Part shown: piece by piece, positions 1 through 11,004 of the stretch | How positions within the stretch are numbered: position 1 is the first letter of the stretch | How the letters are laid out: every line of letters begins with the position of its first letter | Source of the DNA: Lachnospiraceae bacterium | Lineage (GTDB): Bacteria; Bacillota; Clostridia; Lachnospirales; Lachnospiraceae | Length of the DNA stretch: 14,696 nucleotides | Reading direction: 5' to 3' | Assembly (NCBI GenBank): GCA_017444545.1 | Contig: JAFSWJ010000297.1 | Coordinates: forward strand, 1 to 14,696 | The notes under the pieces: model-generated | Told to the model about the DNA's origin: nothing | What the model saw: only the letters and a program-made list of their open reading frames with translations | Database searches by the model: none | Translations under genes and position numbers: made by a program

Positions 1-284
1 AGGCGACCGGAGAAAAGATCCCGGAAGGCTTTACTCTGAAGGCTGTTGAGCAGGATCCGAATTATTCGGCGACCTTTGTTATCCCGGATCTTGTCAGCGA
101 GGAACTGACAGAAGGCGAGATGAAGGAAATGGCCGGCGGTATAAGCTTCATACTTGGTATTTCGGCGTGCGCTGCGGCCGTGGCAGTAGCAGGATGTCCT
201 GCCGATGCATGTGCGGCGGCAGGATGTGCATTTGATGCGTGCGCAGCCCAGGCCTGCGGAGCAAAGGGTCATACAGGATGCTGA
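1..284 (+). CDS. NHLP-leader RiPP precursor peptide, 5' partial (precursor 1)
   Basis: The reading frame is open from base 3 and ends at TGA 282-284; the start lies left of the window. The 93 visible residues are the end of a nitrile-hydratase-alpha-like leader (NHLP type) closing at Met-Ala-Gly-Gly (visible residues 43-46), then a 47-residue core. The leader aligns closely with precursor 2 downstream: both have ATG(E/K)(K/E)IP, EQDP and a proline-containing segment before MAGG, so they are paralogs. The core begins with a hydrophobic stretch (ISFILGI) and then becomes rich in Ala, Gly and Cys. Its cysteines are at core positions 10, 19, 24, 29, 34, 39 and 47, so five fall exactly five residues apart. 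Cleavage after Gly-Gly is inferred from the family. The two radical SAM genes downstream are the likely modifying enzymes. The mature product is unknown. Confidence 0.85.
   Translation, partial: ATGEKIPEGFTLKAVEQDPNYSATFVIPDLVSEELTEGEMKEMAGGISFILGISACAAAVAVAGCPADACAAAGCAFDACAAQACGAKGHTGC
192..266 (+). repeat. Five cysteine pentads in the core of precursor 1
   Basis: Five consecutive five-codon units encode (A/G)-C-x-x-x, for example GCPAD, ACAAA and GCAFD. Residue 3 after each Cys is Asp, Ala, Asp, Gln and Lys in order. The codons vary (tgt and tgc, different Ala codons), so the period is kept at the protein level and is not a recent perfect DNA duplication. Confidence 0.8.
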
Positions 285-294
285 TATTATAAAC

Positions 295-312
295 CGGAAC
301 ATTTTTGTTCCG
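295..312 (+). other. Short hairpin between the two precursor genes
   Basis: CGGAACA (295-301) pairs with TGTTCCG (306-312) around a TTTT loop, 7 base pairs. An A-rich tract follows directly instead of a U tract, so it is a poor terminator. It may stabilise or space the precursor mRNA just ahead of the strong ribosome binding site of precursor 2. Confidence 0.45.
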
Positions 313-342
313 AAAAAATAATTTTTAAGGAGGATACATTTT

Positions 343-654
343 ATGAGTTGGACACAGAAGGACATGGAAAAGAGTTATCAGGATCTGCTTTTGAAGGCAG
401 TAACAGACGCTGATTTCAGGAAAGAGCTTCTGGCAGATCCCAATGCAGCCATTTCAAAGGCTACAGGCAAGGAGATCCCCGCTGATTACAAGATCCGCAT
501 CATCGAGCAGGATCCCGCATATCAGGCAACCTTCTTCCTTCCCGAATTTGCAGGCGAAGAGGTTTCCGAGAATGAGCTTACCGCAATGGCAGGAGGATCA
601 TGCGGTGCAAATGCATGCGCAGCAAACGGATGCGCAGGTCAGGTAACAAAGTAA
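343..654 (+). CDS. NHLP-leader RiPP precursor peptide (precursor 2)
   Basis: A 103-residue peptide with a near-perfect ribosome binding site AAGGAGG (327-333), nine bases before the ATG. Residues 1-85 form an NHLP-type leader (acidic and helical, with LLADP, IP, IEQDP and FFLPEF motifs) ending in Ala-Met-Ala-Gly-Gly at 81-85. The core is residues 86-103 and starts SCGANAC. Its cysteines at 87, 92 and 97 have the same five-residue period as precursor 1. Family knowledge predicts that the leader guides maturases to the core and is removed after Gly-Gly. The immediate downstream genes are two radical SAM enzymes and a membrane protease. Whether both precursors are modified identically, or act as a two-component product, cannot be told from sequence. 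Confidence 0.9.
   Translation: MSWTQKDMEKSYQDLLLKAVTDADFRKELLADPNAAISKATGKEIPADYKIRIIEQDPAYQATFFLPEFAGEEVSENELTAMAGGSCGANACAANGCAGQVTK
598..642 (+). repeat. Three cysteine pentads in the core of precursor 2
   Basis: Three consecutive units encode SCGAN, ACAAN and GCAGQ. Each has Cys at position 2 and a polar Asn or Gln at position 5, matching the pentad pattern in precursor 1. Confidence 0.8.
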
Positions 655-671
655 GTATCGGTTTTTCAGGG

Positions 672-700
672 ATCGGGCAGGATTTTCCTGCCCGATTTTT
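672..700 (+). terminator. Hairpin with U tract between precursors and enzymes (attenuator)
   Basis: ATCGGGCAGGA (672-682) pairs perfectly with TCCTGCCCGAT (686-696) around TTT, followed by TTTT to base 700. This is an intrinsic-terminator shape with a strong stem and a fairly short U tract. No convincing promoter lies between it and the next gene, so partial read-through would give high precursor and low enzyme levels, as is common for RiPP clusters. Full termination with an unseen promoter is the alternative. Confidence 0.75.
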
Positions 701-719
701 GTACAGATAATGAGCCGGG

Positions 720-753
720 TGGAAATATGCATGCCTGCACGCAAATATTTCCA
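720..753 (+). repeat. Imperfect inverted repeat upstream of the radical SAM gene
   Basis: TGGAAATAT (720-728) is the exact inverse of 745-753. The inner bases 729-733 pair with 738-742 except for one A-C mismatch, and AA (743-744) is bulged. No T run follows, so it is not an obvious terminator. It may be an RNA structure or a protein site in the 133-base gap between precursor 2 and the maturase. Confidence 0.5.
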
Positions 754-787
754 TTTGGGAAAAAGCAGCAAAAAGGATTAGCGTGAA

Positions 788-2674
788 ATGAGAAAAAACA
801 AGGCGGATGTTGTTCTGATCCAGATGCCCCATACATGGCTCAACCCATCTCTTGCACTGGGACTTTTAAAGGCGGATCTGCATGCGGAAGGTATTTCAAA
901 TGAGATCATCTACGCTTCTCATCATTATATCGACTTTATCGGCAAAAAGCTTTACAAAAAAGCCGAGAGATGTCTTGATCCCATAGATTGTGCATGGGAG
1001 ATGCTTTTTGCGCCCTTCACGGATTTTGAGCCCATGGAGGATGCTCTGTCCGTCATTGAAAAGATCTGCCGGTCAAAGAGCGTATTTTATTCGCAGTACA
1101 GGGAAAGGTTTTCATCGGAGGAGCTTTGGGATATCCTTAAAGGACTCTGGCCTGTACTTCTTGAAAAAACCGACAGTTTTCTTGAGTATGAAGCGGAACT
1201 TATACTAAAAAGAAAGCCGAAGGTTGTGGGATGTTCCGTGCTGACTGAACAGAGAAATGCTTCCTTTGCGATGCTTAAAAGGATAAAGGAAAAGCAGCCT
1301 GAGGTTGCAACGATCATCGGGGGAGGGCTTTTTGCAGGAGATGCCGGACCTGCAGTTTCCTCACATCTGCCCTCCATTGATTACGTTTTTTCAGGTGAGG
1401 GAGACGGGGCGCTCGGAAAGGGCTGCGCCCTGATCATGAAAGGCAAAAGAGAGGAACTATTGCTACAGCATCCCGAATTTCTCGTTCCCGGAGCCCCGGC
1501 TGTAAACAGGGCGGTAAAAGATATGAATGATGTTCCCGTCCCTGATTATACGGAGTACTTTGCCCAGCTTAAAAAAGACGGATTTGTGCCGGATGACGGC
1601 CTTGTCCTTATTATGGAATCCTCAAGGGGATGCTGGTGGGGACAGAAAAACAGATGCAGGTTCTGCGGACTTCATTCCTGTCAGGATACTTTAAGACACA
1701 GAAAAAAGTCGGAGGACAGGGTGTGGAAGGAACTGAACATACTCCGGAAAAAATACGGTGTGTCGAAGTTTATCTTTTCGGACTGTATCATTGACATGGG
1801 ATTTGTCAAAAATCTTCCCGAGGATCCGCCGGATGAAAGACGGGGACTCAGCATACTTGCAGAATGCAAATCAAACCTCAGGGATGAGGACATGAGAAGA
1901 CTTAGGAAAAACGGATTTACGCGTCTGCAGCCCGGGATAGAATCGCTTTCGGATGAGCTTTTAAACCTCATGAACAAGGGAGCATCAACCATAGACCAGC
2001 TTGCCTGCTTAAAGTATGCCAGAAAATACGGAGTGGGATTGTACTGGAATATAATCTATGCACTTCCGGGAGAAAAAAAGGAGTGGTATGAAGGTATGCT
2101 TGAGATCATGAAGCATATCCATCATTTCCAGCATCCGACAGGGATGCTTCCCATGATGCTCATGAGAAACAGTGTGTTTTTTGAGGATCATGAAGCTTTT
2201 GGGATACATACCGTCCGTACACGGATCAATGAAAGGGCATGTGATCCGGATATAGATTTTTCTTTCAGGACTGCCTATGTTTTTGAAACTCCGGATGTTA
2301 CAGTGGATGAGGATCTGGAAGAAAGGCTTTTTGCGGAGTTTGAAAGCTGGAGAAGGGACTACAGGTCAGGGAAGAACCTCATCATGAGCGAGACTGAGGA
2401 CTGTACCCTGATAAGGGATACCAGGGGATCGGGGTTAAGAAAGGTCTTCCGGCTCACCGGTGCTGCAAGAAAGATAAACGAACTTGCCTTTGAGACGGTA
2501 TCGGAAAAGCGGGTCATGGAAGAAATGCATGGATGCTACAGTGAACCGGAGATACAGGATGCGATCGACATGCTGACCAGAAACCGGCTCCTTTTCAGGC
2601 AGAACGGACGGTTACTGTCTCTGGTTCTTCCCGAAAACAGATGGATGCCTGCGGACAGAGGAACGGAGGGATAA
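788..2674 (+). CDS. B12-binding radical SAM RiPP maturase (RiPP maturation radical SAM protein 1 type)
   Basis: A 628-residue protein with an N-terminal Rossmann-like cobalamin-binding region. Its clearest part is residues 144-215, with PKVVGCSVL, IIGGG and the SGEGDG motif at 202-207. A radical SAM domain follows. The cluster-binding cysteines are 282, 290 and 293 in the stretch SSRGCWWG...CRFCGLH, a CX7CX2C spacing rather than CX3CX2C. This SRGCWWG form is typical, from family knowledge, of radical SAM enzymes encoded beside NHLP precursors. A C-terminal domain after about residue 540 resembles a small winged-helix module and may contact the leader. The expected chemistry is radical-based core modification such as C-methylation, but the reaction cannot be assigned from sequence. 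The start ATG is preceded by AAAGGA. The stop overlaps the next start as TAATG, so translation is coupled. Confidence 0.85.
   Translation: MRKNKADVVLIQMPHTWLNPSLALGLLKADLHAEGISNEIIYASHHYIDFIGKKLYKKAERCLDPIDCAWEMLFAPFTDFEPMEDALSVIEKICRSKSVFYSQYRERFSSEELWDILKGLWPVLLEKTDSFLEYEAELILKRKPKVVGCSVLTEQRNASFAMLKRIKEKQPEVATIIGGGLFAGDAGPAVSSHLPSIDYVFSGEGDGALGKGCALIMKGKREELLLQHPEFLVPGAPAVNRAVKDMNDVPVPDYTEYFAQLKKDGFVPDDGLVLIMESSRGCWWGQKNRCRFCGLHSCQDTLRHRKKSEDRVWKELNILRKKYGVSKFIFSDCIIDMGFVKNLPEDPPDERRGLSILAECKSNLRDEDMRRLRKNGFTRLQPGIESLSDELLNLMNKGASTIDQLACLKYARKYGVGLYWNIIYALPGEKKEWYEGMLEIMKHIHHFQHPTGMLPMMLMRNSVFFEDHEAFGIHTVRTRINERACDPDIDFSFRTAYVFETPDVTVDEDLEERLFAEFESWRRDYRSGKNLIMSETEDCTLIRDTRGSGLRKVFRLTGAARKINELAFETVSEKRVMEEMHGCYSEPEIQDAIDMLTRNRLLFRQNGRLLSLVLPENRWMPADRGTEG
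2665..2669 (+). promoter_or_regulatory. Ribosome binding site fixing the SPASM maturase start
   Basis: GGAGG lies four bases before ATG 2674. An in-frame ATG at 2641 has no such site and would extend 11 codons into the upstream gene, so 2674 is preferred. Confidence 0.7.
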
Positions 2675-4065
2675 TGTATTACAGATTGACGGATGATTAC
2701 ACCCTGCATTCATTTTTGTACAGGAACTACTATCTCTATCATCGAAGTAAACCTGAACCGTCACAGATAAACGAAAAGGATTTCATGCTCCTTCTTGATT
2801 GTGATTCAAAACATGATCTGATCGAAAGTGAACCGATCCATATCCTGACAGACAAGGGGATCATAGAACCCTGCGGCAAAGGGGAGGCTTCATCCGGCAG
2901 GGTATTTCATCAGCATCATGAGCATCGCTATGTTCAGGCGATCAACCTCATGGTCACCGGAAAGTGCAATTATAACTGCCTGCACTGCTTCAATGCTTCC
3001 GACAACGCAGACCGCATGGAGGAATGGGAGTTAAAGGATCTTGTAAGGCTTTTTGAGGAAGCGGCATCATGCGGGATACACTCCGTAACCCTGACAGGCG
3101 GTGAACCCATGCTTCATCCGCATTTCAGGGAAATAGTGCAGGAGATCAAACGAAACGGTCTGGTGCTTGAAAAGCTTACGACAAACGGATTTTTCATAAA
3201 TGAAGACATCCTCGATATGTTTTTGGAAATGGGGATCTCCCCCCAGATAAAGATCTCCTTTGACGGGATCTATCATCACAATTACATGCGCGGGCACAAG
3301 GGGGCTATAGAGAGTACGCTGTCCGCATTCCGGCTTTGTAAAAAAAAGGGCTTTGATACATTTGCCCAGACACAGGTCTTTAAAGACAATCTGCCAACCA
3401 TGAAGGACACCCTTTGTCTTCTCGAGGATGCGGGAGTGAAGACAATGCGGATAATAAGAACAACGCCCCCTCCCCGCTGGGCACTGACTCAGCCTGAGGG
3501 AAGTCTGTCCTTTGATGAATATTTTGAAGCCATGATGGATCTTGCAAAATGGTATATGGGCACAAGGCATGAAGCAGATCTGATCATGTGGCGCTTTCTT
3601 GTACTGTCATCAAAAAGAGGGACTTATCATATGATAAATGTCACACAGAAGGACGGAATTTACCGGCCTGCTTCATCAGTGTGTCTGGGCAGCCGTATGA
3701 TGATGGCCATCACCTGCGAGGGGGATGTTATTCCGTGCATGCAGCTTGGAGGGATCCTTTCGGATCTGGGAGTTAAATTTGACAGTTTGAAAGAACGGTG
3801 TCTTACCGATATTATAAAGGAAGGCAGATGGCTTGATGCCGTATGCCGCAACCGCTACTGGCTCCGTGAGAATAACAGGAAATGTGACGAATGTGAGTGG
3901 TTCGGATACTGCGGCGGAGGATGCAGGGCTTTGGGCATACTTGATTCGGATGTGAGAAAGGGGATCTATGAAAGCAGTGCTTCAGATCCACTGGCCTGTG
4001 TCTTTTTCAAAAACGGCTGGTTTGAAAGGATAAAGGAAGAGTTTAAGGATTATGAAGAAGTATGA
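2674..4065 (+). CDS. Radical SAM/SPASM peptide maturase
   Basis: A 463-residue protein from ATG 2674. Residues 1-90 form a divergent N-terminal segment that could be a leader-recognition domain. The radical SAM motif GKCNYNCLHC gives Cys98, Cys102 and Cys105 in the classical CX3CX2C spacing, followed by TLTGGEP (SAM-binding GGE). The C-terminal SPASM region has the usual cysteine series: C in SSVCLG, ITCEGDVIPC, CDEC, then YCGGGC and a final DPLAC. It therefore probably binds two auxiliary Fe-S clusters. SPASM maturases typically cross-link peptides, for example Cys thiol to carbon (sactipeptides, ranthipeptides). The Cys-rich cores upstream fit a thioether-forming role, but that is inference. 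The gene overlaps the upstream stop by one base and the next gene by 14, indicating one operon. Confidence 0.87.
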   Translation: MYYRLTDDYTLHSFLYRNYYLYHRSKPEPSQINEKDFMLLLDCDSKHDLIESEPIHILTDKGIIEPCGKGEASSGRVFHQHHEHRYVQAINLMVTGKCNYNCLHCFNASDNADRMEEWELKDLVRLFEEAASCGIHSVTLTGGEPMLHPHFREIVQEIKRNGLVLEKLTTNGFFINEDILDMFLEMGISPQIKISFDGIYHHNYMRGHKGAIESTLSAFRLCKKKGFDTFAQTQVFKDNLPTMKDTLCLLEDAGVKTMRIIRTTPPPRWALTQPEGSLSFDEYFEAMMDLAKWYMGTRHEADLIMWRFLVLSSKRGTYHMINVTQKDGIYRPASSVCLGSRMMMAITCEGDVIPCMQLGGILSDLGVKFDSLKERCLTDIIKEGRWLDAVCRNRYWLRENNRKCDECEWFGYCGGGCRALGILDSDVRKGIYESSASDPLACVFFKNGWFERIKEEFKDYEEV

Positions 4066-4717
4066 TATGGCCGGACTTGCTTCAGGTCTGGCAGGGATTT
4101 TCATCGTGGTATATGCCGTAAATCTTTTTTACGGATATGTTCTGGGAGGGCTGTCTGTTCTTTTGAGGATGCCTTTAATGGTGGTTGCCTATTGGAGTAT
4201 TGCCCTTGTTCCCTGTCTCATATCACGATACCTGAAAGACAGAGCATCGGATCTGGGTTTTAAGGGAAATGAGGTTTGGCGCCAGCTGTTTACAGGTATC
4301 CTGACCGGCGCGGGCATGTCTGTCGTTTTAACTCTTGTTCCTCACCTTGCAGGTTTTGGGGAATATGTTGACAATGAGCGCAGGTACATATACCTGTGGC
4401 AGTTTATTTTTGAATTTGTCTATTGTATCGGTGCTGTGAGTCTGGTGGAGGAGTTCTGTTTCCGTGGATTTGTTTTTGCCCGTATAAAAAATCTGACCGG
4501 AAGGGAAAGCCTTGCAATAGCGGGTTCGTCGGTCTTTTTCGGTCTGTTTCATATGTTTTCGGGAGATCCATTGCAGCTTGTCATCACATCAGCCATAGGA
4601 GTTTTTTTCTGTCTTTGCAGATCAAAACTGAAGTACTGTTCCACGCTTTCCCTTATTATTGCCCACGGCATCTATGATGCCATGATCTCTGTCTGGTCAT
4701 CCGTGTTTTTTTCATGA
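4052..4717 (+). CDS. CPBP-family intramembrane metalloprotease
   Basis: A 221-residue polytopic membrane protein of the CPBP (CAAX protease and bacteriocin-processing, Abi) family. Hydrophobic segments run through about residues 8-32, 40-58, 78-98, 115-132, 153-168 and 175-190. The three conserved motifs are present: EEFCFRG (Glu133, Glu134, Arg138), FGLFH (Phe163, His167) and HGIYD (His205, Asp209), so the active site looks intact. It overlaps the SPASM gene by 14 bases and closes the cluster. By context it may cut the leader from the modified peptide or give self-protection, both roles known for CPBP proteins near bacteriocin genes. ATG 4052 has only a weak ribosome binding site; ATG 4064 is an alternative. 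Confidence 0.85.
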   Translation: MKKYDMAGLASGLAGIFIVVYAVNLFYGYVLGGLSVLLRMPLMVVAYWSIALVPCLISRYLKDRASDLGFKGNEVWRQLFTGILTGAGMSVVLTLVPHLAGFGEYVDNERRYIYLWQFIFEFVYCIGAVSLVEEFCFRGFVFARIKNLTGRESLAIAGSSVFFGLFHMFSGDPLQLVITSAIGVFFCLCRSKLKYCSTLSLIIAHGIYDAMISVWSSVFFS

Positions 4718-4728
4718 GCATGGGAAAG

Positions 4729-5028
4729 CTAATACAGAAGTCTGATCCTGATATTTGAAAAAAATACATACCAGACGACAAGAAGGATATGGAAAAGTAA
4801 TATGCCCGGAATGCTTATGAGAAACTTTTTTTTCTTTGTCTTGTGGTGGAATATGAACATACCTGCAAGAGCGCCGACGGAACCGCCAATAACGGCAAGC
4901 CAGATGAGAGCGGCCTCGCTGATCCGCCATTTTCCGGCCTTTGCCAGAGCCTTGTCAATGCCGTAGACCGCAAGGGCGATGAGATTTATGGATATGAGAT
5001 AAATAATGAAGATCTTTTCTATCGTCAT
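4729..5028 (-). CDS. DUF1294 small membrane protein
   Basis: A 99-residue protein with three likely membrane segments (about residues 5-23, 40-60 and 70-90). The DUF1294 signature is clear: YGIDKALA, then WRISE, then GGSVGALAGM and HHKTKKKKF. The function of this family is not established. It starts seven bases after the recombinase stop on the same strand and lacks a strong ribosome binding site, so translation is probably coupled to the recombinase. It converges on the protease gene with an 11-base gap and no recognisable terminator. Confidence 0.85.
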   Translation of the reverse strand: MTIEKIFIIYLISINLIALAVYGIDKALAKAGKWRISEAALIWLAVIGGSVGALAGMFIFHHKTKKKKFLISIPGILLFHILLVVWYVFFSNIRIRLLY

Positions 5029-5035
5029 TTTCCGA

Positions 5036-6079
5036 TCAGTCCTGGCTCAGATTTCTGACAGCCTCGATGGAGGCCTCGGTACTTGTGACATAGTGCATGG
5101 TGCTGGAGATGGAAGAGTGCCCCATGAGCTTCTGGACCTTTTCCACATCACCGGTCTTCATGAGCATGGTTTCCGCAAAGGTTGTACGGAGCTTGTGGGG
5201 AGTGATGCGGTCAGCCTTGTCGGGCACGCAGCCGTACATATATTTTTTCACCAGTTTTTCCACGGATCTGACACTGATCCTCTGCCCGGATCTGTTCAAA
5301 AATACAGCCGGTTCGTTCTTTGGCGGGTTATACAGTTCCCTTCCGTTTTCGATATAGTCTGCAAGTACTTTTTCCGCATTGTCCGACATATAGACAGTAT
5401 CAAAGTTTCCTCCCTTGCGGTGGACGCTGATGCCGTGCTTTGAAAAATTCACATCGTTCAGGTTCATGCCCACAAGCTCGGAAACACGGATACCGGTATC
5501 CAGGAAGATGGTACAGATAGCCGTGTCTCGTTTTGAGGCTTTGATATCGTGAAATTTCAGCTGGTTTCTGGTAAGCCCCAAACCTGTGGATACAGTATTT
5601 ATAAGATCCTGTTTTTCGTCTTTTTCAAGGTAGATGATCTCCTTTTTTTTGACCCTGCCGCGTTTTATCATCTCAACCGGATTTGTGCTGATATAACCGT
5701 GGGCGGTCAGGTAGGAAAAGAGACGGTTGAGGCTTACCATATAATGCATGATGGTGGTCTCGCTGCATACCGAAAGACCGCTGTTGCTGTTTCTTTTCTT
5801 TGGCATTCGAAGGTCATGAAGAAATTCGGCGATATCCTCATCCGAAAGTTCTCCCATATCCTCAACGGTGATCTCTTTCAGACCCTTTTTTGAAAAATAC
5901 GGATTGTTTTCAAGGAGAAAATCAAAAAAGGTATGAAGCTGGCTGGCATAGGAATAAAGAGTCATGCCGGAAAGATGGTTTTCCTCCGACATGAAAAAAC
6001 TCCGCACGAAACGCGGCATGTCCTTATTTATCGCCTCGGCCTTGAAACGGGCCTCGTTTTCCCTGTCTTCCTTGTACAT
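5036..6079 (-). CDS. Tyrosine recombinase (XerC/D-like integrase)
   Basis: A 347-residue site-specific recombinase. The N-terminal core-binding (SAM-like) domain spans about residues 20-130 and the catalytic domain about 150-340. All catalytic residues are visible: Arg198 in TGIRVSEL, Lys222 in RKGG, His295 and Arg298 in TPHKLR, His321 in MGHSS, and nucleophile Tyr330. The enzyme should be active. At 347 residues it is longer than the roughly 300 of XerC/XerD, with extra sequence in the N-terminal half. It could be a chromosome dimer resolution homolog or a mobile-element integrase; no excisionase, phage genes or att repeats are visible. The ATG at 6079 has GGAG seven bases upstream. It is transcribed towards the RiPP cluster and away from rplU. 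Confidence 0.9.
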   Translation of the reverse strand: MYKEDRENEARFKAEAINKDMPRFVRSFFMSEENHLSGMTLYSYASQLHTFFDFLLENNPYFSKKGLKEITVEDMGELSDEDIAEFLHDLRMPKKRNSNSGLSVCSETTIMHYMVSLNRLFSYLTAHGYISTNPVEMIKRGRVKKKEIIYLEKDEKQDLINTVSTGLGLTRNQLKFHDIKASKRDTAICTIFLDTGIRVSELVGMNLNDVNFSKHGISVHRKGGNFDTVYMSDNAEKVLADYIENGRELYNPPKNEPAVFLNRSGQRISVRSVEKLVKKYMYGCVPDKADRITPHKLRTTFAETMLMKTGDVEKVQKLMGHSSISSTMHYVTSTEASIEAVRNLSQD

Positions 6080-6116
6080 GAAGCATCTCCAGAAATAATG
6101 ACAATCCTCCGGTCCA

Positions 6117-6145
6117 ATCTTATGTAACCCTGTTTATGATAACAA
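6117..6145 (-). promoter_or_regulatory. Possible promoter of the recombinase gene
   Basis: Read on the minus strand, TTGTTA (6140-6145), a 17-base spacer and TAAGAT (6117-6122) match the vegetative promoter at 4/6 in each box. The site lies 38 bases before the start codon. Confidence 0.4.
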
Positions 6146-6209
6146 AAACCGGAAGACATGTCCATAGATTTTCCGTTAATCCTGTTGTTTTTTTGAAAAC
6201 AGTAAATGC

Positions 6210-6238
6210 TTGACAAATGCGGGTCCAATTGGTATTAT
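6210..6238 (+). promoter_or_regulatory. Vegetative promoter of rplU-prp-rpmA
   Basis: A perfect -35 TTGACA (6210-6215), 17-base spacer and -10 TATTAT (6233-6238) predict transcription from about 6245. This leaves an untranslated leader of about 83 bases before rplU. Confidence 0.85.
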
Positions 6239-6244
6239 TTGACG

Positions 6245-6318
6245 GTATGCCGCATGGAAAGGTAAAAGTGGCTTTTGTTATGAAGCCCACCGAAAACAGC
6301 GAGTTTTGAGATAAGGAG
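6245..6318 (+). promoter_or_regulatory. Structured 5' leader of rplU, candidate L21 autoregulatory leader
   Basis: The leader can form a stem of 6268-6274 with 6283-6290 (GTGGCTT with AAG-C-CCAC, one bulge) and a second short stem AAAAC (6293-6297) with GTTTT (6303-6307), just before the ribosome binding site. Low-GC Gram-positives are known to have an L21 leader RNA at this place. I infer a similar element from position and fold only; I have not matched it to the family consensus. Confidence 0.4.
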
Positions 6319-6320
6319 GT
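6313..6320 (+). promoter_or_regulatory. Ribosome binding site of rplU
   Basis: AAGGAGGT ends seven bases before ATG 6328. The in-frame GTG at 6319 falls inside this site, so it cannot be the start. Confidence 0.85.
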
Positions 6321-6327
6321 GTGCCGG

Positions 6328-6636
6328 ATGTACGCTATTATTGCAACAGGCGGAAAGCAGTACAAGGTCAGCGAAGGCGATGTGATCAAGGTAGAAAAGC
6401 TGAAAGCCGAAGAAGGTGAGACCGTTACATTTGATGAAGTCCTTGCAGTAGGCGGTGACAAACTCACGGTTGGCAATCCCACCGTCGAAAAGGCATCTGT
6501 AGCAGGCAAGGTCCTGAAGCAGGGCAGAGACAAAAAGGTCATTGTTTACAAGTACAAGAACAAGGGCGGTTATCACAAAAAGAACGGACACAGGCAAGCA
6601 TACACGGAAGTGCAGATCGACAAGATCAATGCTTAA
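6328..6636 (+). CDS. rplU: 50S ribosomal protein L21
   Basis: A 102-residue protein starting [14 protein letters not shown], the canonical L21 N-terminus. The conserved C-terminal [15 protein letters not shown] stretch contacts 23S rRNA. The length equals the family norm. It is first in an operon with prp and rpmA, a fixed Firmicutes arrangement, and is driven by the strong promoter at 6210-6238. The ATG at 6328 is chosen for its spacing from AAGGAGGT and for family length. Confidence 0.97.
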
Positions 6637-6661
6637 TTGTGAAGAGAACTGATCTCACCAT

Positions 6662-6982
6662 ATGATAAATGTAAGGGTCATCAGAAAAAACGGAAAGATC
6701 CGCGGTTTTTTGACGGAGGGGCATGCGATGTTTGACAGCGCCGGAAAAGATATCATCTGCGCTGCGGTGAGCATACTTACCATCAATACCGTCAATGCCT
6801 TTGAAACCTTCCTTCCGGAGGAAAAAACGGAAGTTGAGGTTGATGAAGAAAAGGGCAGGATCGAATGTGTCTTTGCTGAGGAACCTTCTGAAAGGGCAGT
6901 ACTTCTGCTTGATACCTATTTCCTCGGTATCAGAGGGATAGAAGAGGAGTATGGCAGGGATCATCTGAAACTTGTAGACTGA
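6662..6982 (+). CDS. prp: Ribosomal-processing cysteine protease Prp
   Basis: A 106-residue homolog of B. subtilis YsxB and S. aureus Prp. The catalytic pair is visible: His21 in EGHAMF and Cys33 in DIICAAVS. In Firmicutes Prp removes the N-terminal extension of L27 before ribosome assembly. Its expected substrate is encoded next door: rpmA at 7008 begins with the NLQFF-Ala recognition sequence. It lies 25 bases after rplU and 25 before rpmA. Ribosome binding near its ATG is weak (GAAGAGAAC is the only purine run), so expression may be lower than that of the ribosomal proteins. Confidence 0.94.
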
Positions 6983-6994
6983 TGGAAAGATGAA

Positions 6995-7001
6995 AAGGAG
7001 G
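6995..7001 (+). promoter_or_regulatory. Ribosome binding site of rpmA
   Basis: AAGGAGG ends six bases before ATG 7008. The upstream in-frame ATG at 6990 overlaps this region and would add six residues before the conserved L27 N-terminus, so it is rejected. Confidence 0.85.
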
Positions 7002-7007
7002 CAGGAG

Positions 7008-7295
7008 ATGTTAGGATATAACCTTCAATTCTTCGCTCATAAAAAGGGAGTCGGATCGACAAAGAACGGTCGTGATTCCGAAGCAAAGAGGCTGGGAGCA
7101 AAGAGGGCCGACGGACAGTTTGTAAAGGCAGGAAATATCATTTACAGACAGCGCGGCACACACATTCATCCCGGCAAGAATGTGGGCCGTGGCGGAGATG
7201 ACACGCTTTTCGCACTGGTGGACGGAGTCCTTCGTTTTGAGAGAAAGGACAAGTTCAGAAAGCAGGCAAGCGTTTACGAAGTCGAAGCAAAGTAA
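7008..7295 (+). CDS. rpmA: 50S ribosomal protein L27 with cleavable N-terminal extension
   Basis: A 95-residue L27. It begins [17 protein letters not shown]: the first nine residues are the Firmicutes-type extension, and the Prp cut is expected between Phe9 and Ala10, exposing the mature N-terminus that reaches the peptidyl transferase centre. The [15 protein letters not shown] and [16 protein letters not shown] motifs are canonical. The gene ends this transcription unit at a strong terminator 5 bases downstream. Confidence 0.97.
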
Positions 7296-7300
7296 TCTTT

Positions 7301-7333
7301 AGTCCCGGACCTTTCACAGGTCCGGGACTTTGT
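7301..7333 (+). terminator. Intrinsic terminator after rpmA
   Basis: AGTCCCGGACC (7301-7311) pairs perfectly with GGTCCGGGACT (7319-7329) around a 7-base loop, and the downstream strand continues TTGTT. It closes the rplU operon. Confidence 0.85.
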
Positions 7334-7341
7334 TAATTTCA

Positions 7342-8718
<1,377 letters not shown>

Positions 8719-8729
8719 AGAGGAAAAAC

Positions 8730-9026
8730 ATGAAATTATCCAGTTCACAAAGAGCATATCTGAGAAGCCTTGCCATGACCATGGATACCATTTTACAGAT
8801 CGGAAAGGGATCCATCACTCCGGAATATGTGAAGGCGGCGGATGAGGCTCTGGAAAAGAGAGAACTCATCAAGGTAGGAGTATTGAAAAACTGTCCCGAT
8901 GATGTAAAGGAGATAGCGCAGACTCTGGCTGAAAGGACCAAGTCGGTGCTTGTTCATGTGATAGGAAAAAAGATAGTACTGTACAGACCGCGGAAAAAGG
9001 ATCCCGTGATCGTGCTTCCGAAATGA
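8730..9026 (+). CDS. yhbY: CRM-domain RNA-binding protein YhbY
   Basis: A 98-residue single CRS1/YhbY (CRM) domain protein. The start LSSSQRAYLRSLA and the GKGSITPEYVKAADEAL region hold the conserved GxxG-like RNA-binding loop. ELIKVGVLKN and the C-terminal GKKIVLYRP complete the fold. It is associated with pre-50S particles. It starts 11 bases after obgE, with AGAGGA as ribosome binding site. Confidence 0.93.
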   Translation: MKLSSSQRAYLRSLAMTMDTILQIGKGSITPEYVKAADEALEKRELIKVGVLKNCPDDVKEIAQTLAERTKSVLVHVIGKKIVLYRPRKKDPVIVLPK

Positions 9027-9033
9027 ATGTGAT

Positions 9034-9636
9034 ATGAGGACAGGGATATTCGGCGGAACCTTCAACCCCATACATACCGGACATCTGATGCTTGCAGAGC
9101 AGGCATACAGTTCCTTTGTGCTTGACAGGGTGTTTTTCATACCCAGCGGCAGATCATATTTCAAGGATGATATAAAGATGCCGGATGCAGCTGTCAGGTT
9201 TGAAATGTGCAGGCTGGCCTGTGAAGGAAATGAACATTTTCATGTCCTTGACACAGAGACAAAAAGACCGGGAAATTCCTATACCTGTGAAACCCTCGAG
9301 GAATTAAAGGGGATGTATCCGGATGATGAGTTTTTTTATATCGCAGGCTTTGATTCCTTTGCCGAACTGGGACATTTTAAGGATCCTGAAAAGATATTTG
9401 CGCTTTCAAGGATCGTCGTAGCGGCACGAAATGATGGAACTGACATTTCTGCTATCAAAATTAATTATGAGAGTAAATTCGGGGCAAGGGTGGATATCCT
9501 TGATATGCCAAGGATCGATATCTCGTCAAGCATGATCAGGCAGTATATCAAAGAGGGCAGGTCAGTGAGATACTATCTTCCCGGCCGGGTTGAAAAATAT
9601 ATCATGGAAAACGGCATATATACGGAAAGCATATGA
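9034..9636 (+). CDS. nadD: Nicotinate-nucleotide adenylyltransferase
   Basis: A 200-residue NadD, which adenylates nicotinate mononucleotide with ATP to deamido-NAD in NAD synthesis. The nucleotidyltransferase signature GGTFNPIHTGH is at residues 7-17 and ISSSMIR at 163-169. Length is normal for the family. The start lies 7 bases after yhbY with no good ribosome binding site, so it probably depends on translational coupling. Its last 4 bases overlap yqeK. Confidence 0.95.
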   Translation: MRTGIFGGTFNPIHTGHLMLAEQAYSSFVLDRVFFIPSGRSYFKDDIKMPDAAVRFEMCRLACEGNEHFHVLDTETKRPGNSYTCETLEELKGMYPDDEFFYIAGFDSFAELGHFKDPEKIFALSRIVVAARNDGTDISAIKINYESKFGARVDILDMPRIDISSSMIRQYIKEGRSVRYYLPGRVEKYIMENGIYTESI

Positions 9637-10211
9637 AAGAAAGCACCATAGAACTGCAGAAAAAAGTGAAAAAATGTCTTGATAAGGAGCGCTACAGGCA
9701 CACCCTCGGAGTGGCCTATACGGCTTCCGCTCTGGCCATGAGGTATGGAGAGGATTCAGAAAAAGCCTTTGTTGCCGGATTGCTCCACGACTGTGCAAAA
9801 TGCATTCCGAATGATGAAAAATATGAACTCTGCCGTGAATATGGCATAGAGCTTTCAAAGTCCGAACTGGAGATCCCGTCCCTTGTACATGCAAAGCTTG
9901 GGGCTTATCTTGCAAGGAACAGATATGGCATAGAGGATGAGGATATCATAGCCTCTGTCAGGACTCATACGACGGGAGAGCCCGGGATGTCACTGCTTCA
10001 AAAGATCATCTTTTCGGCAGATTATATAGAACCCAACAGAAGTGAGGCACCGGACCTTTTTGAAGTCAGAAAAGAAGTCTTTGATGATATCGACCGCGGA
10101 GTATACAGGATCCTTTCCGATACCCTGAAATATCTTGACAGAAAAGGCGGAAAGATAGATCCCATGACACAGAAGACCTATGAATACTATAAGGATTTGA
10201 GGAGAGAATGA
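9633..10211 (+). CDS. yqeK: YqeK-type HD hydrolase, symmetrical diadenosine tetraphosphatase
   Basis: A 192-residue HD-domain protein. The metal ligands are visible: His23 in YRHTLGV, His52-Asp53 in LLHDCAK, His86 in VHAKLGA, His112 in THTTGEPGM and Asp130 in SADYIEPNR. The HTTG and ADYIEPNR motifs are specific to YqeK, which splits Ap4A symmetrically to two ADP. It overlaps nadD by ATGA and rsfS by ATGA, so the three are translationally coupled. The neighbourhood nadD-yqeK-rsfS is standard in Firmicutes. Confidence 0.94.
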   Translation: MKESTIELQKKVKKCLDKERYRHTLGVAYTASALAMRYGEDSEKAFVAGLLHDCAKCIPNDEKYELCREYGIELSKSELEIPSLVHAKLGAYLARNRYGIEDEDIIASVRTHTTGEPGMSLLQKIIFSADYIEPNRSEAPDLFEVRKEVFDDIDRGVYRILSDTLKYLDRKGGKIDPMTQKTYEYYKDLRRE

Positions 10212-10540
10212 TATTGGAATCAAAAGAAAAAGCAGATATTGCCATTGCAGCGCTTGAGGATAAAAAAGGTGAGGATGTAAAGATCATAGATGTTTCATCC
10301 CTGACCGAGATCGCTGACTATTTTGTACTTGCTACAGCAAACAATAAGAACCAGCTTGAGGCCCTGGTAGATGCCGTGGAGGAGAGAATGGGGAAAAACG
10401 GCATCATACCAAAGAATATAGAGGGGAGGCCTCAGGATAATACCCAGTGGATATTGATGGATTATAATGACATCATAGTCCACATTTTCACGAAAGAGGG
10501 ACGTGATTTCTACGACCTTGAAAGGATCTGGAAGAAATGA
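10208..10540 (+). CDS. rsfS: Ribosomal silencing factor RsfS
   Basis: A 110-residue RsfS/DUF143 protein that binds L14 and blocks subunit joining when nutrients are low. The conserved segments are DVSSLTEIADYFVLATA, the EGRPQDNTQWILMDYNDIIVHIF region and FYDLERIW at the end. It is last in the packed operon. A convergent gene ends 25 bases downstream; no T-rich terminator hairpin is visible in that gap. Confidence 0.95.
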   Translation: MILESKEKADIAIAALEDKKGEDVKIIDVSSLTEIADYFVLATANNKNQLEALVDAVEERMGKNGIIPKNIEGRPQDNTQWILMDYNDIIVHIFTKEGRDFYDLERIWKK

Positions 10541-10564
10541 CCCGGCCCGGCAGAGGCTGATGTA

Positions 10565-10930
10565 TCATTTCATCGCGTAGAAATAGGGTATTATCAGATG
10601 ATCACCGGCATGGATGTCATTGATGTCATCAAGGTTGTTCAGTCTGACAACCTCATTGATGTATTCCTTTTTACCGGAATATTCGGAGGAGATATACCGG
10701 GCGGCGATACTTGAGAGGGTATCGCCCTTTTTGATCTCAATACTCCTGTAGTATTTGGAACGGCTGCCGGCCGGTGTCTTCTCATCTGCAAAGGAACGGG
10801 TGGAAAGGGAGGACGTCGCTGCGACGACTATGATGGAGAAAACAGCAGAGAACATGACAAACCTGCGTCGAAGCTCCTTCTGTCTGCGGATCCCTGCTCT
10901 TTTCAAAACCTTTGAACCTGCTGTATTCAT
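10565..10930 (-). CDS. LysM membrane-anchored protein, YneA-like SOS cell-division inhibitor candidate
   Basis: A 121-residue protein with a basic N-terminus, one hydrophobic anchor (about residues 25-43) and a C-terminal LysM domain (about 62-115: YRSIEIKKGDTLSSIAARY ... INEVVRLNNLDDINDIHAGDHLIIP). LysM binds peptidoglycan, so the protein should face the wall. This layout and the position divergent to lexA match YneA of Bacillus, which halts division during the SOS response. Length is close to the roughly 105 residues of YneA. Its promoter is covered by LexA-box-like sites. The start at 10930 is chosen because GAGGAGG lies 8 bases upstream; a longer frame to 11020 would run through the promoter and is rejected. 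YneA identity rests on architecture, context and regulation, not on alignment. Confidence 0.85.
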   Translation of the reverse strand: MNTAGSKVLKRAGIRRQKELRRRFVMFSAVFSIIVVAATSSLSTRSFADEKTPAGSRSKYYRSIEIKKGDTLSSIAARYISSEYSGKKEYINEVVRLNNLDDINDIHAGDHLIIPYFYAMK

Positions 10931-10938
10931 TGTCTTTT

Positions 10939-10945
10939 CCTCCTC
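10939..10945 (-). promoter_or_regulatory. Ribosome binding site of the LysM gene
   Basis: GAGGAGG on the minus strand, 8 bases before ATG 10930; it decides the start. Confidence 0.8.
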
Positions 10946-10954
10946 AAAACAGTG

Positions 10955-10968
10955 CGAACGTTTGTTCT
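10955..10968. promoter_or_regulatory. LexA box A, at the LysM-gene transcription start
   Basis: CGAAC-GTTT-GTTCT contains the perfect core GAAC-N4-GTTC of the Gram-positive SOS box. It lies just downstream of the predicted minus-strand -10. Confidence 0.8.
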
Positions 10969-10975
10969 GTTTTTG

Positions 10976-11004
10976 ATTATATCGAACATATTTTCGAAAG
11001 TCAA
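10976..11004 (-). promoter_or_regulatory. Promoter of the LysM (yneA-like) gene
   Basis: On the minus strand, -35 TTGACT (10999-11004), a 17-base spacer and a perfect -10 TATAAT (10976-10981). The spacer contains LexA box B completely, so repressor binding would exclude RNA polymerase. Confidence 0.85.
10983..10996. promoter_or_regulatory. LexA box B, inside the promoter spacer
   Basis: CGAAC-ATAT-TTTCG has one mismatch to the GAAC-N4-GTTC core. The 17 bases from 10983 to 10999 are repeated exactly at 11014-11030. Confidence 0.8.

Follow-up and report, generated by a model that had tools for sequence, protein, structure and literature searches.

A probable proteusin-type cluster with four radical SAM enzymes, paired precursors and cysteine-pentad cores in a Lachnospiraceae bacterium

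The cluster and its reconstruction

The DNA analysed here (referred to below as the window) is a whole contig of 14,696 bases (C190 of genome G000, a Lachnospiraceae assembly of 381 contigs at 66% completeness), and the genes in its first 4717 bases appear, together with others from beyond the contig end, to make up a cluster of the proteusin type for a ribosomally synthesised and post-translationally modified peptide (RiPP), with four radical S-adenosylmethionine (SAM) enzymes, paired precursors with leaders of the NHLP family, and cores built on a repeat of five residues (a pentad) that begins with cysteine. We would put the probability of this reading, which is drawn from sequence comparison, at about 0.62. 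A previous sequence-only reading of the window had proposed an NHLP-type RiPP cluster with two radical SAM maturases, one of a C-methylation type and one of the SPASM type; the kind of cluster and both enzyme types stand, but the count of two reflected the contig end, and four is the better figure because the genes immediately upstream encode a second SPASM enzyme (here SPASM-1) and an epimerase of the PoyD type.

All five cluster genes were confirmed within positions 1–4717, on the forward strand, at the positions given for each below. Because the window is an entire contig, the 5′ part of precursor 1 and every gene upstream of it are missing from it. L002, from a close relative (it is contig C23 of genome G026), extends 2.2 kb farther upstream and there carries, in order, the end of SPASM-1, a 441-residue PoyD-family protein and a full copy of precursor 1 (133 residues, L002:2111–2512). 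The corresponding stretch in the genome of the window is on contig C136, which is 96% identical to L002 and breaks off after the first 21 bases of precursor 1, leaving a gap of about 97 bases to the start of the window. On this evidence the first 4717 bases of the window would hold just the right-hand part of the cluster, with the left half on C136. The cluster contigs were left unjoined, and colinearity with L002 gives the inferred order as an acetyltransferase-like protein (47% to an L078 protein that has a GNAT match), SPASM-1 (449 residues), PoyD, precursor 1, precursor 2, a B12-binding radical SAM enzyme, a further SPASM enzyme (SPASM-2) and a CPBP protease. In genome G026 a relative of ATP-binding cassette (ABC) exporters precedes the acetyltransferase-like gene (contig C231).

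Precursors and cores

Precursor 1 (type I) is represented in the window by its C-terminal part (3–284), which is open at the contig start and comprises the end of the leader, a GG motif and a core of 47 residues with seven cysteines (141–281), hydrophobic at its start and thereafter with Cys at every fifth residue. Precursor 2 (343–654, short type) has an 85-residue NHLP leader, followed after its own GG motif by an 18-residue core with three cysteines at spacing 5 (598–651, from the translation and the Cys spacing test described below). Both leaders finish in AGG and are of the proteusin kind. Against the TIGR03793 model for NHLP leaders, which has a cut-off of 50.9 bits, precursor 2 scores 52.2 and the truncated precursor 1 scores 23.4, while the full L002 counterpart of the latter reaches 47.5, slightly below the cut-off; with that small reservation, the earlier description of the two as paralogous NHLP precursors was borne out. 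Precursor 2 also has an 88% identical copy in L078.

The regularity of the cysteines is far outside what composition would give. With core 1 read from its L002 copy (99% identical), six of the eight Cys–Cys spacings in the two cores are exactly 5, against a mean of 0.69 after shuffling, and none of 20,000 shuffles reached six. A profile search, in which the 7,994 candidates with the most shared words were scored, puts at least 434 proteins in the precursor family at E ≤ 1e-3. For cysteine statistics 128 precursor sequences were used, drawn from best-match lists rather than as a random sample, and these gave 120 distinct cores (P0134, P0141, P0147, P0166, P0183 and P0219 being excluded because the GG rule gave no core for them); spacing 5 accounts for 204 of their 400 Cys–Cys spacings (shuffle mean 30.6, with 204 reached in 0 of 500), followed by 9 (101) and 6 (40). 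The pentad has the form C-[AG]-A-x-A; at x, the third residue after Cys, D occurs in 92 of 205 cases, and K, Q, N or A make up most of the rest.

Among the matches listed, type I cores combine a hydrophobic start with S-A-C-A-A-A-[VI], and short-type cores lack that start and frequently begin C-L-I-D-G, although precursor 2 of the window is short and has no such beginning. The split by pattern into types I and II is a rough one, with P0195, P0223 and P0245 misassigned. Both types are held by G000 and G026 and by two further genomes, G012 and G188 (the last with one type I and two short precursors), and four pairs of one type I and one short precursor are on contigs of equal reported size (P0150/P0230, P0167/P0226, P0168/P0232 and P0178/P0241), which suggests that the members of each pair sit on a common contig. 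Because both types occur together in genomes and in these equal-size pairs, a two-peptide product seems likely.

Some very long NHLP precursors were also seen, namely P0145 (459 residues, L079:12248–13627), P0139 (219), P0141 (224) and P0239 (at least 205), whose cores contain many Cys pentad repeats and which are of unusual size for a RiPP core; P0145, from genome G024, has a core of about 200 residues and terminates in a long acidic tail. Separately, the type I precursor P0164 is named in the protein database as from Blautia producta, on a contig of 6.35 Mb, making that organism a possible culturable source of a homologous precursor.

SPASM-1, the PoyD-type epimerase and the B12 enzyme

Both SPASM-1 and SPASM-2 carry radical SAM motifs and Cys-rich C-termini, and the cluster thus has the arrangement of a SPASM maturase beside a Cys-containing precursor that is characteristic of sactipeptides and ranthipeptides. 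The nearest solved structure to SPASM-1 is that of the thioether-forming enzyme CteB (E 1.9e-21), and its nearest NCBIfam models are CefB, Clo7bot and TIGR04463, at 193–227 bits against cut-offs of 525–600; the PapB model gives 113–131 bits (cut-off 340). With scores so far under every equivalog cut-off, the type of bond made by these relatives is not transferable to SPASM-1.

These comparisons bear on an alternative, namely that this is the Cys-every-fifth system in the NCBI sense (CefA/CefB) with extra enzymes. The spacing of five suits the family name, among NCBIfam models it is CefA (NF038108) to which the cores have a match, and CefB (NF038107) is the top model for two of the three full SPASM-1 proteins scanned. 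The matches to CefA are weak, however (16.8 and 15.9 bits for the window precursors, 15.7 and 15.6 for those of L002 and 27.4 for P0145, where the cut-off is 30), and the three full SPASM-1 proteins score 213.9, 227.1 and 193.0 and the L002 fragment 99.7 against a CefB cut-off of 600. By curated score, therefore, the cluster is not CefA/CefB; it also adds an NHLP leader, an epimerase and a methyltransferase. In a search of 299 family genomes CefA matched in seven at E ≤ 1e-3, once above cut-off, and the contexts of the matches in G337, G379 (at two places), G182, G221 and G195 (those in G189 and G206 being outside this comparison) held no relative of the cluster genes. The open-access literature examined makes no mention of the CefA/CefB family, and on balance this alternative seems improbable.

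The PoyD family was scanned (TIGR04517, cut-off 325) with the copies of L002, G188, G012 and G024, the copy in the genome of the window being 96% identical to that of L002; L002 scores 333.9 bits and G188 344.8, both above the cut-off, so that a PoyD-type radical SAM epimerase, as expected in a proteusin cluster, is present. Five PoyD sequences from four lineages have in common the cluster cysteines 130, 134 and 137, together with cysteines 178 and 294; PoyD itself has a known hydrogen-donor Cys (PMC8326336; here and below, papers given by PMC number are represented by excerpts). The B12-binding radical SAM enzyme (788–2674), a predicted peptide C-methyltransferase, scores 438.3 bits with TIGR03975 (cut-off 281.85) and has at residue 282 the motif CWWGQKNRCRFC, of the form Cx7Cx2C given for the polytheonamide and bottromycin C-methyltransferases (PMC5682303). 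At the limits applied, sequence comparison gave no relative of known structure for either the PoyD protein or the B12 enzyme.

SPASM-2 and the CPBP protease

The start of SPASM-2, a predicted radical SAM/SPASM RiPP maturase, was set at 2674 rather than 2641, in keeping with the length of its 463-residue relatives, and its gene (2674–4065) shares one base with that of the B12 enzyme (TAATG) and overlaps that of the CPBP protease (4052–4717) by 14 bases, just as the sequence-only reading had described for this run of three. It scores 75.6 bits with the Pfam Radical_SAM model (cut-off 29.5) and 18.8 with SPASM, below the cut-off of 21.5, and no equivalog among the 25 NCBIfam models listed is above cut-off. 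An AlphaFold2 model built from 44 sequences (pLDDT, a per-residue confidence score, 92.3) resembles anSME, SkfB, SuiB and CteB.

If attention is confined to the window, the B12 methyltransferase and SPASM-2 could be taken as the pair that defines the product, which would then carry C-methylation and a cross-link, with the upstream enzymes minor or serving another product. The overlapping of the B12, SPASM-2 and CPBP genes is what one would expect of one translational unit, the ratio of non-synonymous to synonymous substitution (dN/dS) of SPASM-2 is 0.22, and a SPASM-2 protein (P0004) and a family precursor (P0125) have an equal reported contig size of 11,894, which hints at a second co-occurrence. 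Set against this is the distribution of SPASM-2. It was found in two of the five genomes with strongly matching precursors (G000 and G026, one lineage) and not in the clusters that correspond in G012, G024 and G188, whereas SPASM-1 and PoyD adjoin each other beside the precursors in all five; the B12 enzyme was found in four of the five. In G012 the SPASM-2 relative is on a separate contig, beside a different small GG open reading frame (ORF; L025). More generally, relatives of SPASM-2 have an ORF with a GG leader within 110 bases in eight of nine loci (random intervals give a mean of 1.4 of nine, with eight reached in 0 of 2,000 trials, and other long ORFs there do so in 4 of 54 cases), where L028 escaped the GG rule, which in L025 took a weak 78-residue ORF instead of a zinc-ribbon-like one. 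Of nine such precursors that were scanned, three are above the Nif11 cut-off and one more below it, and none matched NHLP. SPASM-2 looks to have been recruited into an NHLP cluster, and we regard the idea that it and the B12 enzyme by themselves define the product as unlikely.

Some small GG-leader proteins have zinc-ribbon-like cores (CPxC...CxxC), at L027:10446–11863 and L025:10870–11067, beside SPASM-2 relatives, and at L101:5504–5821, beside a weak SPASM-1 relative (23%); these could be RiPP precursors with a zinc ribbon as their basis.

The CPBP protein scores 53.8 bits as an Rce1-like/CPBP intramembrane protease (PF02517, cut-off 22.4), has the motifs EExxxR, FxxxH and HxxxD, and has a 49% relative in L078. 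It probably either assists as a protease or confers immunity; a role as the main leader protease is less likely because long GG leaders are cut by C39 transporters (PMC10885120).

Related clusters

At E ≤ 1e-3 the precursor profile (A1) matched in 8 of the 48 genomes scanned from the genus, in 7 of the 397 from the family and in 15 of the 398 from the phylum; for the order, at 1e-8, it matched in 3 of 344. Strong matches with this Cys-rich core are present in the five genomes already named, G000, G026, G012, G024 and G188. The family score identifies the B12 C-methyltransferase in G000, G012 and G024, and 95% identity does so in G026; it was not found within the 25 kb examined of G188. Exporters with a C39 peptidase are present in G012 and G024 (by Pfam) and in G188 (a 57% relative).

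Further afield, G901, from another family (profile E 3e-25), has two loci, each with an NHLP precursor and a relative of SPASM-1 (48% and 44%), and neither (L107, L108) shows a PoyD relative. L107, whose core holds C-x4-C, has no relative of PoyD or TIGR03975 in the 19 kb examined; the B12 enzyme of L108 scores 116.6 with TIGR03975 (cut-off 281.85) and is nearest to ApyD (275 against 750). Since these loci lack a PoyD relative, the minimal shared unit would appear to be SPASM-1 with an NHLP precursor, bearing spaced Cys in L107. G967 (profile E 1e-11, L109) has a distant SPASM protein (30%) and cores GCGC...; like G901 it is described here and not counted as having a member of the cluster family. 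Also not counted were leader-only matches (E 1e-4 to 1e-6; G046, G037, G047, G032 and five more genomes). In the phylum scan only G000 of the 15 matching genomes was counted, and among the other 14 the one locus examined, in G634 (L081), was set aside as having two NHLP precursors with cores devoid of Cys.

A quite different possibility is that the cores undergo no covalent remodelling at their cysteines, being secreted metal-binding or disulfide peptides on which the radical enzymes only epimerise and methylate. The cores are indeed very Cys-rich and of low complexity, reaching about 200 residues in G024, and the thioethers are predicted ones. However, the CteB-type SPASM-1 is the sole enzyme present in every related locus, even where no PoyD or B12 enzyme is visible (L107), and unmodified cysteines therefore seem very improbable. 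Being present with such precursors in all five strong-match genomes, SPASM-1 is the enzyme likeliest to act on the cysteines.

Comparison with known systems

The closest parallels are with the proteusins, as exemplified by polytheonamide (PoyA, PoyB/PoyC, PoyD), which have in common with the present cluster an NHLP-like leader, a PoyD-family epimerase and a Cx7Cx2C B12 C-methyltransferase (PMC8326336, PMC5682303). The cores here differ in being short Ala/Gly/Cys pentad repeats, and two SPASM enzymes are added; the excerpts of the same two papers describe no SPASM enzyme in proteusin pathways. The ranthipeptides and sactipeptides (CteB-SCIFF, freyrasin PapA/PapB, SkfB, thuricin CD) share SPASM maturases acting on Cys-rich GG-type precursors, and thuricin CD offers a two-peptide precedent, but no equivalog score of theirs is reached here. 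NHLP clusters with radical SAM genes were predicted in anaerobes in 2014 (PMC4289311), and these NHLP or Nif11 clusters resemble the present one in their precursors, peptidase-transporter and several radical SAM genes; the main text of that paper does not use the word epimerase, and its excerpts describe no core with Cys at every fifth residue. Poly-cyclopropylglycine (PMC9062424) and the marine Bacillota proteusins (PMC10931772) were considered and are different systems.

Proposed maturation and its assessment

The genes, their families and motifs, their order in a close relative, their conservation and the Cys pattern are direct observations, and from them we infer every reaction, the reaction order, the action as two peptides and any biological activity. 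In the scheme that seems to fit best, SPASM-1, being CteB/CefB-like, would most likely link the regularly spaced cysteines through thioether bonds to carbon atoms in neighbouring residues; the PoyD-type enzyme would convert chosen L-residues to D-residues; the TIGR03975 enzyme would methylate unactivated carbons, perhaps those in the hydrophobic stretch with which core 1 opens; and SPASM-2 would contribute one further modification of unspecified kind. An ABC exporter with a C39 peptidase would then cleave after GG and secrete both peptides, probably as a pair, with CPBP serving as helper protease or immunity protein. The earlier suggestion of two kinds of radical modification, C-methylation together with cross-links, would be accommodated within such a scheme.

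Several points weigh against this reading. Only two of the four PoyD copies scanned pass the family cut-off (G012, at 319.8 bits, and G024, at 313.3, lie below it), and SPASM-1 is far under every equivalog cut-off; the order as a single cluster depends on colinearity with L002, with the gap of about 97 bases remaining; G024, with its single giant precursor, runs counter to a general two-peptide rule; the core of the second G901 locus (GCSLSIFRMC) departs from the pentad; and the open-access papers give no known product or activity for these cores. This last agrees with the earlier remark that no characterised product was recognised, and no description of this combination of enzymes and precursors was found in the open-access literature, subscription papers being outside the search.

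Other features of the window

Between the precursors and the maturases is a hairpin (667–701, forward strand) with a 16-bp stem and a 3′ arm ending in a T run; the region 655–715 has a folding energy of −27.2 kcal/mol (z −5.98). A simple terminator scan did not pick it up, and a scan of the window at Rfam gathering scores gave zero matches. It may be a leaky terminator, which could give more precursor than enzyme.

Comparison with L002 of seven cluster genes or gene parts (six in the window or on C136, plus part of SPASM-1) gave dN/dS values of 0.01–0.26 and no stops; the cluster genes are under purifying selection. For the cluster the synonymous rate (dS) is 0.06–0.22, against 0.49 for obg, the one gene compared from the flank, and nucleotide identity to L002 is 94–98.8% over positions 1–6000 and 83–92% over 6001–11000, apart from a block at 7001–7500 (97.6%). 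Over window positions 1–11000, then, the two species differ less in the cluster and recombinase region than in the housekeeping flank, which fits a recent exchange of the cluster region between species, with uneven substitution as the alternative.

The cluster is followed on the reverse strand (4729–6079) by a DUF1294 gene and a gene for an XerS-like tyrosine recombinase. In G012 a similar pair lies on the other side of the cluster (L100:1375–2723), and the neighbourhood has therefore been rearranged. Carriage by a mobile element was considered and not adopted: 44 stretches were pattern-matched in viral contigs, none being confirmed as a relative of the precursor family, and a plasmid search found no relative of precursor 1. 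Farther along (6319–7295) are genes that we take to encode the ribosomal proteins L21 and L27 and a Prp-like protease, L27 being extended at its N-terminus (NLQFFA); in Firmicutes whose L27 has such an extension, Prp trims L27.

Implications

Whether the cluster represents a new class, making a hypermodified and probably two-peptide proteusin that combines pentad-repeat thioethers, D-residues and C-methyl groups in a rigid rod or helix, with cores of about 200 residues in relatives such as P0145, is a more tentative matter, and we would rate it a possibility only. If the main reading is right, one peptide receives three or four different radical modifications (epimerisation, C-methylation and one or two kinds of cross-link). 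The related loci form what may be a natural enzyme series, from SPASM-1 with a C-x4-C precursor (G901), through the addition of PoyD (G188) and of the B12 enzyme (G012, G024), to that of SPASM-2 in the lineage of the window. With such a series one could ask directly in what order radical SAM enzymes work on a regular repeat and how they influence one another.

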